DNA of 38,656 bases from Treponema sp. (GTDB lineage Bacteria > Spirochaetota > Spirochaetia > Treponematales > Treponemataceae): the NCBI GenBank assembly GCA_016282835.1, contig JAEELR010000059.1, positions 1-38,656 of the forward strand, written 5' to 3'. Of the stretch, positions 9,932-36,183 are shown in pieces (positions within the stretch are counted from its first letter, which is position 1; each line of letters starts with the position of its first letter). The notes below the pieces were generated by a model, which was given only the letters and a program-made list of their open reading frames with translations, made no database searches and was not told the DNA's origin. The position numbers and the translations under genes were made by a program.

Positions 9932-10067
9932 ATTATTCCTTCTACTTTTTAATATTAAAACTTTTCTCAATACAATGAGTTACAAAAACTAGCGTTATTA
10001 AAGATAACATATATTAGGTTAAACTTTGAGTTTCATCAATTCAAAAATACAGTATTCAAAAATGTGT

Positions 10068-10149
10068 CTCAAAAATGTGTCCGCTCCCAGAAAAGACTTT
10101 TGGGGGAACGACAACCACTACTTGCGAAGCGTGGTTTTCTTTCCCCCAA
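10068..10149. repeat. Repeat element, relative of the 35336-35483 element
   Basis: The first 30 bp (10068-10097) match 35337-35366 at 29 of 30 positions. The rest differs in sequence but again folds as a nested hairpin: outer arms TTGGGGGAA (10100-10108) and TTCCCCCAA (10141-10149), inner arms AACCAC (10113-10118) and GTGGTT (10131-10136). Confidence 0.75.
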
Positions 10150-10206
10150 GCCCCTAATCTTTCTCGCACGCTTTAAATGGCTTTGCGATGATTTGAGGCT
10201 TTGTCA

Positions 10207-10232
10207 GGTGGTTTCGACTTCGCTCAACCACC
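10207..10232. repeat. GGTGGTT/AACCACC hairpin
   Basis: Arms of 7 bp with a 12-nt loop containing TCGA. The same hairpin type recurs at 30018-30041 and 35287-35321, each time in intergenic DNA. Confidence 0.7.
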
Positions 10233-29944: not shown

Positions 29945-29973
29945 ACAAGTTCCTGCGGTCTCTGAGTGAAGAA

Positions 29974-30033
29974 TTGCAGTGGTTGAACTAGAGTTGCGGT
30001 GATTGAGCTAGAGTTGCGGTGGTTGAGCTCGTC
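29974..30033 (+). repeat. Three tandem 20-bp repeats
   Basis: Units at 29974-29993, 29994-30013 and 30014-30033 share TTGC-[AG]-GTG-[AG]-TTGA-[AG]-CT. The third leads into TCGAAACCAC to give the GGTGGTT-type hairpin also found at 10207 and 35287. Confidence 0.75.
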
Positions 30034-30058
30034 GAAACCACTGTATACAGAGCAACGC

Positions 30059-30128
30059 GTCATTCCGAACTTGTTTCGGAATCTGTATGGATAGAGACTG
30101 ACAGATACTGAAATAAACCCTGCATGAC
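30059..30128 (+). repeat. 70-bp palindromic element, copy 1
   Basis: Begins GTCATTCCGAA and ends GCATGAC. The internal hairpin ATTCCGAA/TTCGGAAT differs from copy 2 (ATTCTGAA/TTCAGAAT) by a compensatory pair, so the stem is conserved. Confidence 0.8.
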
Positions 30129-30141
30129 ACAAAATAATCCT

Positions 30142-30211
30142 GTCATTCTGAACTTGTTTCAGAATCTGTATGGATAGAGACTGACAAATACTGAAATAAA
30201 TTCAGCATGAC
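30142..30211 (+). repeat. 70-bp palindromic element, copy 2
   Basis: Begins GTCATTCTGAA and ends TTCAGCATGAC, terminal inverted repeats matching at 10 of 11 positions. It has the same length as copy 1 and is nearly identical in the middle. A third copy on the other strand is at 1269-1330. Confidence 0.8.
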
Positions 30212-30271: not shown

Positions 30272-30790
30272 TTATTTCTTAAAGTTATTACAAGCTTCTT
30301 CGACCTTCTTAAAATCAATTACAATTTTTCCAACAGGAAATTCTGCTTCAGTTGCAGTGCATTTTTTTTCATACAAATTCTTTGCAGTTTTTTCTATTTT
30401 TTCGCGATTATCTTTACAGAAATTATACTCTGCCAGCATAAGCATTTTGTAACTGAAGTCTCCCTCATCATTGATTTTGTAATCTGTGAGTTCGGAAGAT
30501 GGAACTGGTATCATAGAATTAAAGCGAAGAGTTCCATACAATTTTTCCTTACTTCTCATGTAAATTGTTGTAAGATTATTTTTTCGGATTTTACCGTTAT
30601 CGTAATCTTTATCTTTTGGAGAAGACATCGGAACAAAATATTTAAAACCATTTATTTCAGTTATAATACCGACATATTTTCTGTGATATGTTCGTTCATT
30701 TGGTTTGTTTTTCATTACGTGAGTTTCGATTTTTGAAAGGTAAGCAATATATTCATCACTTACAATATAAAAAACATTATCTTCTGCCAT
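30272..30790 (-). CDS. toxN: ToxN/AbiQ-family type III toxin (endoribonuclease)
   Basis: A 172-residue protein matching the ToxN/AbiQ family in length and motif order. It has FYIVSDEYIAYL near the N-terminus, YVGIITEINGFKYFVPMSSPK (residues 39-59) with the family's [TS]SPK catalytic-region motif (Ser56-Ser57-Pro58-Lys59), then LYGTLRFNSMIPVP and a helical C-terminus (YKMLMLAEYNFCKDNREKI). Toxins of this family cut A-rich RNA and are neutralised by a repeat RNA encoded directly upstream. Here three 35-nt repeats and a terminator precede the gene in that order. The start ATG 30790 is 9 nt after the T-tract, with only GGGGA as ribosome-binding site, fitting low read-through expression. Likely roles are phage abortive infection and/or locus maintenance. 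Confidence 0.87.
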   Translation of the reverse strand: MAEDNVFYIVSDEYIAYLSKIETHVMKNKPNERTYHRKYVGIITEINGFKYFVPMSSPKDKDYDNGKIRKNNLTTIYMRSKEKLYGTLRFNSMIPVPSSELTDYKINDEGDFSYKMLMLAEYNFCKDNREKIEKTAKNLYEKKCTATEAEFPVGKIVIDFKKVEEACNNFKK

Positions 30791-30799
30791 TCTGTCCCC

Positions 30800-30829
30800 A
30801 AAAATAAAAAAGGCGACATTTAAGTCGCC
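30800..30829 (-). terminator. Intrinsic terminator between antitoxin RNA and toxin
   Basis: On the minus strand stem GGCGAC/GTCGCC (30829-30824 and 30817-30812), 6-nt loop, then TTTTTTATTTTT (30811-30800). As in known type III systems it should limit toxin mRNA relative to antitoxin RNA. Confidence 0.85.
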
Positions 30830-30936
30830 CGTTAAGTTCTCCAGTTTGGGTCGGAGCGTACCCAGTTTAAGTTTTCCGCTTTGAGTCGGAACGTACTCAG
30901 TTTAAGTTTTCCACTTAGGGCAGGAAAGCTCCCAAT
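30800..30936 (-). ncRNA. toxI: ToxI-like repeat antitoxin RNA
   Basis: On the minus strand there are three tandem repeats of 35 nt: 30933-30899, 30898-30864 and 30863 to about 30830. Each opens with a short stem-loop whose arms are GGG/CCC, GAGT/ACTC and GGGT/ACCC. The second and third differ by a G-C to A-T pair swap, which supports a folded RNA. Each ends in a shared A-rich half (GGA-[AG]-AACTTAA). The repeat number and 35-nt period resemble the AbiQ antitoxin antiQ. A promoter precedes it and a terminator follows. The RNA is inferred, not observed. Confidence 0.82.
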
Positions 30937-30942
30937 AATTAA

Positions 30943-33486: not shown

Positions 33487-35223
33487 CTATAAAAAGAGAG
33501 AAATTGTTTCCATTAAGTTGGCATAAGATATTGGTTTTGTAATATAGCTGTTTAATCCGTAGTAAGTTGCTTTTTCTTTATCCTCTTTAAATGCATTTGC
33601 TGACATTGCAATAATTGGAATATTAGAAAGCTCAGGATTTTCCAGATTACGAATTTTTGCTGTAGCAGAATAACCGTCCATCTCCGGCATAATGATATCC
33701 ATTAAAATTAAATCGTAATAACCCTGTGTCGAAGAGGTAAGCATATTTATTGCCTGCATTCCGCTTAAAGCTGTTTCGCATTTTATTTTTGCCATTTCCA
33801 GTAAACCGGTAGCAATTTCCAGATTGATTATATTGTCATCAACAACAAGAATTCGTTTGTTTTCAAAATTGTATGTTATGTGCTGAGTTTTTACTTCATT
33901 CAATAATTCAACTTTTTCGAAACTTAAATTGATTATAAACTCGCTTCCCTCACCAATTTTACTGCTTGCTGCAATAGTTCCGCCCAAAATGGTAACAAGT
34001 TTTTTCGTTATCGAAAGTCCCAGACCTAAGCCAAAAACACCCTTTGTACTTTCATCCTTTGCCCTTTCATAAGGCTCAAATATTTTTTCCAGAAACTCAG
34101 GTGCAATTCCTTTTCCTTCATCACGAACAATAATTTCATACTGCCCGCATTTTCTGTCCATGGAGCCAGCATCTTTTTGATTGATTGTTATATAAATATT
34201 TTTCCCGCATTCAGTATATTTTATCGAATTGTTTAACAGGTTCAGGATTATCTGCTTTATCTTTACTTTATCTGTCCTGACCGTGCAATCATTTAAATTT
34301 GAAAAATCAGTTATAAGCTTTATCCGTTTCAAATCAGCTTCTATCTTTACAAGCTGAATGGTTTCTTCTACAAGCACTTTTATATTTACCGTAGTGTTTT
34401 CAATCGGTGTAATTCCCTTTTCAATTTTCGAAAGCTCCAGAACATTATTCACAAGATTCAACAGGAATTCACTCGAAGCGCTAATCTGGTTCAAATAGGA
34501 TTCAACTTTATCCCTGTGGTCAATAGAAGCTTTTGCTAACTGAGTAAATCCTGTAATGGAATTAATTGATGTCCTGATATCATGCGAAGTGTTGGCAATA
34601 AAATCACTTTTTGAATCAGCAGCTTTTTGTGCAATCTTTTTTGCTTCCTCTAATTTCTTATTCTGCTTTGTGCTTAAATAATTTTGAATCTTAAAGATAA
34701 GACAAATCAGGAAAGCAATAAAAATCATACTGTAAGTCATGTCTATAATACTTGTAAGCGGACTTTCAATTGGAGCAACAAGAACGGGATGCTTAATAGT
34801 AAGCATTATCGTAGCAACATCAGCAACAGTACCAATAACAAACATAATGATTGCTTTATAACCGGTTAAAACTAAATAAGTAAATACAAGACCGGCAAGC
34901 ATCCAGAAAATCATTCCGCATTTAAAACCGCCAAAAGCACAGAATAAAACAGGAAGAATAATACAATTAGAAATGGTTAAAATAAAAATAGCCGCTGCCG
35001 TAGGATGCTTCCAGTTATTGGCAATTATGAGCGAAAAAGTAAAAAGACAAACTGCCGCAAAAGCAAATGCATTAGCAAAAAAAGAAAACTTCAGAATGAA
35101 ATTAAAAAGAATTGAAATTAAAGCTATAATATCAAGACCCAAAATTAAAACATTAAAAAACAAATGCTGTATTGTATATTCTTCATTAAAAAGATAATTC
35201 TTTATTTTTGCCTTAAAACTCAT
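33487..35223 (-). CDS. Hybrid sensor histidine kinase/response regulator
   Basis: 578 residues from ATG 35223. The N-terminal about 185 residues hold six hydrophobic helices (membrane sensor). A HisKA domain with NTSHDIRTSINSITGF (phosphoacceptor His near residue 211) follows, then HATPase boxes LNLLNNSIKYT, VRDEGKGIAPEFLEKIFEPYE and GVFGLGLGLSITKKLV. A C-terminal receiver domain has RILVVDDNIINLEIA, the phospho-Asp in LILMDIIMPEMDG, and ITKPI. It phosphorylates itself and passes phosphate to its own receiver; there is no output domain, so a partner is needed. An in-frame ATG at 35241 exists. 35223 gives a more typical N-terminus (MSFKAKIKNYLF) and has TATAAT 6 nt upstream; the choice is uncertain. 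Confidence 0.9.
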   Translation of the reverse strand: MSFKAKIKNYLFNEEYTIQHLFFNVLILGLDIIALISILFNFILKFSFFANAFAFAAVCLFTFSLIIANNWKHPTAAAIFILTISNCIILPVLFCAFGGFKCGMIFWMLAGLVFTYLVLTGYKAIIMFVIGTVADVATIMLTIKHPVLVAPIESPLTSIIDMTYSMIFIAFLICLIFKIQNYLSTKQNKKLEEAKKIAQKAADSKSDFIANTSHDIRTSINSITGFTQLAKASIDHRDKVESYLNQISASSEFLLNLVNNVLELSKIEKGITPIENTTVNIKVLVEETIQLVKIEADLKRIKLITDFSNLNDCTVRTDKVKIKQIILNLLNNSIKYTECGKNIYITINQKDAGSMDRKCGQYEIIVRDEGKGIAPEFLEKIFEPYERAKDESTKGVFGLGLGLSITKKLVTILGGTIAASSKIGEGSEFIINLSFEKVELLNEVKTQHITYNFENKRILVVDDNIINLEIATGLLEMAKIKCETALSGMQAINMLTSSTQGYYDLILMDIIMPEMDGYSATAKIRNLENPELSNIPIIAMSANAFKEDKEKATYYGLNSYITKPISYANLMETISLFL

Positions 35224-35229
35224 AATTCC

Positions 35230-35235
35230 ATTATA
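35230..35235 (-). promoter_or_regulatory. Possible -10 box abutting the histidine kinase start
   Basis: On the minus strand TATAAT ends 6 nt before ATG 35223. A second TATAAT lies at 35249-35244. No convincing -35 is seen for either. Confidence 0.35.
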
Positions 35236-35286
35236 CTCCATAAATTATAATAATGCATAAAACTTTTATTATTGTTCAGAAACTGC

Positions 35287-35321
35287 GGTGGTTGAGTAGG
35301 CAACGCCGTATCGAAACCACC
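35287..35321. repeat. GGTGGTT/AACCACC hairpin
   Basis: Arms at 35287-35293 and 35315-35321, the same arms as at 10207-10232 but a longer loop. It precedes the 148-bp element at 35336. Confidence 0.65.
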
Positions 35322-35335
35322 CTGCCTCATCAAAG

Positions 35336-35483
35336 ACTCAAAAATGTTTCCGCTCCCAGAAAAGACAGGCGGCCTCACGCGGTTGAAGGGTATAAGGTAT
35401 TTGACTCACTCGCTTACGCTCGTTCGCCCCTTCAAAGTGTTCGGCCGCCTTCTGCTTTTCTTCGCGCTACAACATTTTTGAGT
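35336..35483. repeat. 148-bp MITE-like element with 13-bp terminal inverted repeats
   Basis: Ends ACTCAAAAATGTT (35336-35348) and its exact complement (35471-35483). Nested internal inverted repeats: AGGCGGCC (35367-35374) with GGCCGCCT (35443-35450), and TTGAAGGG (35383-35390) with CCCTTCAA (35428-35435). The left 30 bp match the element at 10068. No coding capacity. It sits between the divergent histidine kinase gene and the end of prsW. Confidence 0.75.
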
Positions 35484-35517
35484 TACTTCCTAACCGAGGT
35501 AATTTCAATACGCATCG

Positions 35518-36183
35518 CTATTCAATCACCACTTCAGTCTTGTCAATCTTCCCTCTGAGCCGTAAGAACCTGATTCTGCATTCCAAGATACTGATTAAGA
35601 CAACAACAAATGAAATATAGAAGAAAAAATTACTCAGCTTAAAGCCCGCAAAATAATCATAGACACCGTGTAAAAGGAAAGCCCATACAAATGGTGAAAC
35701 AGAAAGTTTTTTAACGCGAATCGAATAAACAAAAAGCGAACTCAAACCGCAGCAGGCTGTATGAATGATTACCGATGTAAAAAACCTAAGCTCAAGACTG
35801 GTAGAGCCCGAAAGAAAATACACTATGTTTTCAAAACACGCTAAAGATAATCCGCACAAAAGTCCGCACGCAAAAAACGAATTAATATTCATCTTTTTAT
35901 ATGGAAGAAAAAACAACAGAATCATCTTAAAACTTTCTTCTATTATACCGTTAAGAATCAGGGCCTTTAGTAAAACAGCCGGCAAAGTAGAAGCCTGAAG
36001 TAAATTTTTCTGCTCTATAAAAAACTGAACTGCAGTAATGGGAATAACGGCAAGCAGACCCAGAACACAAGCTAAAACTGAATGGAAAAAATTCAAAGAC
36101 TTAACACAAAGCTTTATAACAATAAAAAAAACTACAACTATTAAAATGCTCGCAATAAGCGGCAGATAAAGACTAAAATTCAT
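35518..36183 (-). CDS. PrsW-family intramembrane metalloprotease
   Basis: A 221-residue protein with about seven transmembrane helices. PrsW motifs are present: NGIIEESFKM (Glu82-Glu83 and Lys86), the FENIVYF segment, VIIHTACCGLSSLFVYSI with a conserved His, and AFLLHGVYDYF with the last conserved His and Asp. In Bacillus PrsW cleaves the anti-sigma factor RsiW; the substrate here is unknown and no sigma/anti-sigma pair is adjacent. No Shine-Dalgarno precedes ATG 36183, and a promoter ends 9 nt upstream. Confidence 0.87.
   Translation of the reverse strand: MNFSLYLPLIASILIVVVFFIVIKLCVKSLNFFHSVLACVLGLLAVIPITAVQFFIEQKNLLQASTLPAVLLKALILNGIIEESFKMILLFFLPYKKMNINSFFACGLLCGLSLACFENIVYFLSGSTSLELRFFTSVIIHTACCGLSSLFVYSIRVKKLSVSPFVWAFLLHGVYDYFAGFKLSNFFFYISFVVVLISILECRIRFLRLRGKIDKTEVVIE

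Follow-up and report, generated by a model that had tools for sequence, protein, structure and literature searches.

A dispersed palindromic repeat family of Treponema with a conserved fold and variable stems

A 148-bp non-coding stretch with inverted ends at 35336–35483, together with a second element at 10068 that begins alike and continues differently, raises the question of what kind of repeat this Treponema genome carries and which of its properties are kept from copy to copy. The window, that is, the whole stretch of 38,656 nucleotides analyzed, is a single contig (C93) of a 2.77-Mb draft genome (G000, 93% complete), hereafter the own genome. The element is flanked by genes for a PrsW-like protease (35518–36183, − strand) and a hybrid histidine kinase (33487–35241, − strand). 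Its 13-bp inverted ends, ACTCAAAAATGTT (35336–35348) and AACATTTTTGAGT (35471–35483), are perfect, as the initial annotation had stated. The parts of the element are as follows.

35336–35483, + strand: element core, one of ~18 full-length copies in the own genome (covariance model R1 match at 35339–35481, 179.6 bits)
35336–35348, + strand: outermost core stem, 5′ arm, the 13-bp inverted end (mirrored variation of this stem in other copies)
35471–35483, + strand: outermost core stem, 3′ arm (perfect inverted partner)
35349–35367, + strand: conserved internal loops and invariant stems, 5′ side, TCCGCTCCCAGAAAAGACA (11 of 13 5′-loop columns invariant in 18 copies)
35450–35470, + strand: the same loops and stems, 3′ side, TTCTGCTTTTCTTCGCGCTAC (36 genomic sites versus 0 for a reversed control)
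35368–35374, + strand: variable stem 4, 5′ arm GGCGGCC, partner 35443–35449 (several pairs changed on both sides)
35443–35449, + strand: variable stem 4, 3′ arm GGCCGCC (covariation of aligned copies)
35383–35390, + strand: apical stem, 5′ arm TTGAAGGG, partner 35428–35435 (aligned-copy structure)
35428–35435, + strand: apical stem, 3′ arm CCCTTCAA (aligned-copy structure)
35391–35427, + strand: apical region with the motif TATAAGGTATYTGACT...TCGC, the genus-wide peak of sequence conservation (comparison with relatives)

Folded as DNA, the 148 nt reach −32.4 kcal/mol, compared with a mean of −17.1 for shuffled sequences (z = −5.35), and none of 200 shuffles is as good. The structure had been described as two nested GC-rich hairpins; the nesting stands, whereas the two separate hairpins resolve into a single rod whose stems are nested and whose internal loops are conserved. 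Rather than being a simple terminal repeat, the 13-bp ends form one stem of this six-stem rod.

In the own genome there are 39 occurrences of the left motif and none of its reversed control pattern, which excludes chance; with 39 left ends in 2.77 Mb, the further copies that the initial annotation suggested seeking by their left end do exist. The right motif occurs 36 times (reversed control 0), and R1 returned 34 matches. Several copies sit at the ends of contigs, which is usual for repeats in draft assemblies. All copies examined are intergenic, with unrelated neighbors in convergent, divergent and tandem orientations, and no linked gene was found to be common to the loci apart from the element's own spurious ORF. 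Rather than a gene-linked regulator, the family is a dispersed repeat. At the present locus, an ORF of 101 aa (35253–35558) crosses the element, and ORFs like it are seen at other loci; it is probably no gene, since those lookalikes arise only because the repeat is common to the loci.

A structure alignment of the 18 full copies from the own genome yields a rod of six stems with the internal loops TC/CTAC, TCCC/TC, ACA/TTCTG, TC/TC and GG/A, in which 98.9% of the pair cells are paired. The loops are nearly invariant among these copies and the stems variable. Thirteen pairs have changed on both sides, in 51 cells; shuffling gives 13.8 ± 3.1 cells, and sliding the partner no more than 6. Comparison of every copy with every other gives 653 mirrored stem differences and 162 that affect one arm (~80% mirrored), the mirrored ones nearly always exchanging one Watson–Crick pair for another, and G·U pairs are rare (5/702 cells). 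All these counts come from related sequences and are not independent events. The covariation is repeated in another species, G020, whose 10 copies are 95% paired and display 15 pairs changed on both sides (25 cells versus 6.1 ± 1.9), with G·U in 3 of 378 cells. It is the fold that the family keeps: the stems are free but paired, and the loops and apical motif are constant. In the single orthologous pair read directly (L219/L175), there is one core-stem difference, and it is unmirrored, which counts against the explanation favored below.

Beyond the own genome, 58 relatives were searched with R1, and 12 of them, all of the same genus, contain members. The family is present in many species, roughly one third of the genus. 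A phylum sample of 393 genomes contained members in 12, all of this genus, and none in other genera. An exact-motif search of named genomes gave one true copy (L040), from an uncultured Spirochaetaceae; nine other exact-motif matches proved to be unrelated chance matches. In relatives, the letters of the outermost core stem are wholly different (CAAGATTCAA, GAAAACAGAGG, CATCTGTAC, AGGAACCGC and others), each stem being paired with its own partner; the apical motif TAATAGGTATCTGACTCGC...TCGCAC is retained, as is the CTCCC-type loop. Some relatives carry inverted side-by-side pairs of elements 75–115 bp apart (L212 in G324:C49, L213 in G386:C103 and L112 in G059:C47). Phage, plasmid and viral collections gave no match to the element. 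In the literature searched, no published description of the family was found, and one may exist elsewhere; nor was anything found there on compensatory changes in MITEs or on rumen Treponema repeats.

Where the element ends is a separate matter. In many copies an outer palindrome (GGTYRAANNTCGAGTTT...) adds ~35–45 bp to each side, and the 13-bp stem is relettered in relatives; these observations do not support the 13-bp repeats as the ends of the element or as the boundaries of a simple MITE. The 60-nt flanks of copies in the own genome pair at −23.8 kcal/mol with their own partner versus −15.5 with the partners of other copies (0 of 2000 permutations), and copy-specific flank complementarity is similar in G020 and G028. 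The core usually sits inside a further outer palindrome that is partly copy-specific. For the copy at 35336–35483 the flank values are −33.9 versus −19.2 kcal/mol with the flanks of other copies, and the paired features are these.

35287–35321, + strand: REP-like hairpin GGTGGTTGAG...CCACC in the left flank, forming an outer stem with its inverted relative in the right flank (flank complementarity)
35498–35530, − strand: degenerate inverted relative of that hairpin in the right flank, overlapping the 3′ end of the PrsW-like gene (read directly)

The left-flank hairpin matches repeats in three other genomes (G014, G015 and G061). The common outer repeat, GGTYRAANNTCGAGTTT, is carried by many copies in the own genome and in G022, G028 and G059, and TA comes before it at 26 of 62 ends. 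Widespread though this terminal repeat is, other species and copies have other outer stems; the copies of G005, G009, G273 and G369 carry a different outer repeat, TGTGGAAGGCAAGTGC, which speaks against the outer repeat being a fixed end that defines the family.

The element at 10068 had been reported to share its left end with the copy at 35336 and to differ inside. Both statements are accurate: 29 of the 30 bases in its left end (CTCAAAAATGTGTCCGCTCCCAGAAAAGAC) match, and the two interiors differ. It comprises the following parts.

10017–10034, + strand: left outer terminal repeat GGTTAAACTTTGAGTTTC, with TA just before it (outer-repeat comparison)
10067–10098, + strand: half-element consisting of the family's 5′ arm without the 3′ arm (motif searches)
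10099–10215, + strand: unrelated repeat module TTTTGGGGGAACGACAACCACTAC..., right edge provisional, joined to the half-element (same module after AGAAAAGNN in L028 and L102)

In the 10068 copy a half-element is joined to another repeat; it is one of three half-elements in the own genome that are fused at one internal position, after AGAAAAGNN, to the repeat GGGGGAACGACAACC... At the left edge of the 10068 copy lies an exact 13-bp tandem duplication, TCAAAAATGTGTC (10056–10081), as though the end had been duplicated in copying. Three copies (L023, L028 and L069) are without the hairpin tip, which was deleted between short TCTGC repeats. Two others were noted for their interiors: L024 (1510, − strand) holds ~79 extra bases with palindromes of their own inside the apical region, and L105, read by eye, seemingly has a G020-type core within the arms of an own-type element.

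Whole interiors also differ among relatives. In G009, seven copies keep the type A stems and carry another apical domain, GAGCCGGGACA...CCCTTGCAAATG replacing TGTGCGGTATAAGGTATCTGACTCGC...; this second domain (L267–L273) has a hypervariable center between the constant GAGCCGGGACA and CCCTTGCAAATG. At an orthologous site (G273:C16/G009:C22), the flanks and both terminal repeats match and the interiors are mostly unalignable. Interiors are exchanged between copies, by a route that may be recombination between common arms or nested insertion. The initial annotation's suggestion of recombination between related elements is supported by the two apical domains of G009, the G273/G009 site and the recurrent junction at 10068. 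A clean empty site was found neither at the window's own locus, which is too divergent in relatives, nor among the G273 and G009 sites compared, and no target-site duplication was established at the element loci compared. The G009 counterpart of G273:C23:51.6k is without most of the element, and because a left remnant stays (G009:C11), it represents a deletion rather than a clean empty site. At G009:C43, the homology to G273 ends at the element's left edge.

Other repeats lie elsewhere in the window. A 40-bp tandem repeat at 259–343 has a unit containing the perfect palindrome TTTGTCTAGTGTACACTAGACAAA, and other palindromic repeats cluster at 29970–30211 (GGTGGTTGAGCT tandem units and GTCATTCCGAACTTGTTTCAG... 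units with an 83-bp period). A type III toxin-antitoxin locus (30272–30937) consists of a ToxN toxin gene (30272–30790, − strand) and, beside it, an antitoxin RNA-like 35-bp tandem repeat (30832–30916), with a terminator-like hairpin near 30812–30830.

We favor, with a probability of roughly 0.6, the reading that the family consists of genus-restricted, non-autonomous, dispersed, non-coding nested palindromes of MITE-like character that are read as folded strands, have their arms re-equalized and recombine their interiors. On our best reading it is loosely of the bacterial MITE kind and appears new; its members are short, non-coding and present in many dispersed intergenic copies (39 left ends, no flanking ORF in common). 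From the covariation, in which loops and apex are conserved and stems are free but paired, we infer that the fold matters at some step. During its spread, the element may at some step be read as a folded single strand, in which case only copies with intact stems and loops would multiply. Template switching at hairpins during replication probably copies arm onto arm and so keeps the stems paired; the near absence of G·U and the mirrored multi-base changes point to such copying at the DNA level. Since template switching alone would erase the conserved asymmetric loops, selection for the loops must be added, and it would act most simply at the moment of spreading. Recombination between copies with common outer arms would swap interiors, and slippage or fusion would yield tip-less and half copies, such as that at 10068. 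Mobility is suggested by the dispersal of the copies, and the mobilizing enzyme probably acts in trans. Several results count against this explanation. The own draft genome, 93% complete, gave 0 matches to the Y1 transposase (PF01797; RAYT), for which control genomes were positive, and none to the DDE_3 transposase (PF13358); no autonomous relative or related insertion sequence was seen; and the loci compared gave neither a clean empty site nor a proven target duplication.

A bolder proposal, which we put forward tentatively, is that the family is mobile DNA defined by shape, whose machinery would recognize a folded single strand in which the loops and the apical motif are fixed. If so, every stem, "terminal repeats" included, would be free to change, and interiors and outer palindromes would be traded as modules.

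Several established kinds of element could produce a similar picture. A classical terminal-inverted-repeat MITE of a TA-targeting insertion sequence, in the IS630/Tc1 style and like RUP or ERIC, would have GGTYRAANNTCGAGTTT as its transposase sites and an interior of palindromic filler. The TA that flanks the outer repeat at many ends agrees with this, as do the size, intergenic location and palindromic form, which fit the bacterial MITEs reviewed in PMC2229807. We nevertheless consider it unlikely, given that the own genome is without a DDE_3 match, that species with the same core carry unrelated outer repeats, and that filler would not retain asymmetric loops and mirrored stem changes.

A structured RNA, too, is usually recognized by covarying stems together with loops and an apical motif that stay the same, and the family could act as RNA, which we count against the favored explanation. 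A dispersed RNA of this kind would be transcribed, its loops and apex would bind protein or RNA, and selection on each copy would keep the stems. RNA stems usually pass through G·U, however, which is nearly absent in both genomes counted above; the gene context is randomly oriented, broken and interior-swapped copies are common, and Rfam gave no match, neither for the window at gathering score nor for the element itself in its loci. Such an RNA seems to us a doubtful prospect. Lower still we place folded-strand recombination sites like integron attC, in which a tyrosine recombinase or HUH enzyme would cut a conserved unpaired loop and the interiors would be captured cassettes. A structure that is kept while its sequence varies, the conservation of unpaired bases and the exchange of interiors would all suit such sites; the stem arms, however, have no RYYYAAC/GTTRRRY boxes, arrays and cassette ORFs are missing, and a Y1 enzyme was not found in the own genome. 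Hardly credible is a degenerate by-product of slippage and template switching that accumulates palindromes with neither mobility nor function, which would account for the mirrored stem changes and the tip deletions between short direct repeats (L023, L028 and L069), whereas ~40 copies beside unrelated genes require dispersal and sequence-conserved loops are unexpected of a neutral process.

Palindromic repeats are usually classed by sequence and terminal repeats, and a family whose stems change in near-perfect mirror around fixed loops would escape such searches. With dozens of copies per genome, the present family offers a natural test of whether template switching at hairpins maintains structure in bacterial chromosomes, and the same copies also test whether such elements move as folded strands.

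Among known systems, ERIC, Correia (NEMIS) and RUP are bacterial MITEs with TA termini (PMC2229807). Like them, the family is 100–230 bp long, non-coding and intergenic, with tens of copies, a long hairpin and often TA before the outer repeat; unlike them, its stems and the outer repeat of its relatives change in mirror, its loops and apex are kept, and its interiors are exchangeable. BOX of Streptococcus pneumoniae (PMC3049150) is likewise a modular, folded composite repeat of a narrow taxonomic group. BOX (boxA-boxB(n)-boxC) varies by the copy number of its tandem boxB units (PMC3049150), whereas the family swaps unrelated apical domains within the same nested stems; a search for a tandem internal unit at 35336–35483 found none, and identity with BOX was rejected on this ground.

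REP/REPIN elements, mobilized by RAYT (TnpAREP) (PMC8266576, PMC3116915), are dispersed palindromes too, and the folded-strand step is proposed here by analogy with them. REPs measure 20–40 bp and bear a GTAG/CGTC tag (PMC3733652), unlike the family, whose core spans 120–150 nt with several loops and has no conserved GTAG/CGTC at its ends; with the core too long, the tag absent and 0 matches to PF01797 in the own draft genome, REP/RAYT identity was rejected. Integron attC sites resemble the family in that the fold is conserved, the sequence varies and unpaired bases are kept, which is no test of relatedness, and the family differs in having neither R″/R′ boxes nor cassette arrays; attC identity was rejected on the base stems (CAAAAATG/CATTTTTG, AGGAA.../...TTCCT, CAAGATTC/GAATCTTG and others), which hold no RYYYAAC/GTTRRRY boxes. 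Multi-base compensations produced by template switching have been documented in RNA genes (PMC8794818). Hairpins maintained in this manner are the parallel that explains mirrored multi-base changes without G·U intermediates, the difference being that those hairpins belong to RNA genes and the present ones to a dispersed palindromic repeat family.
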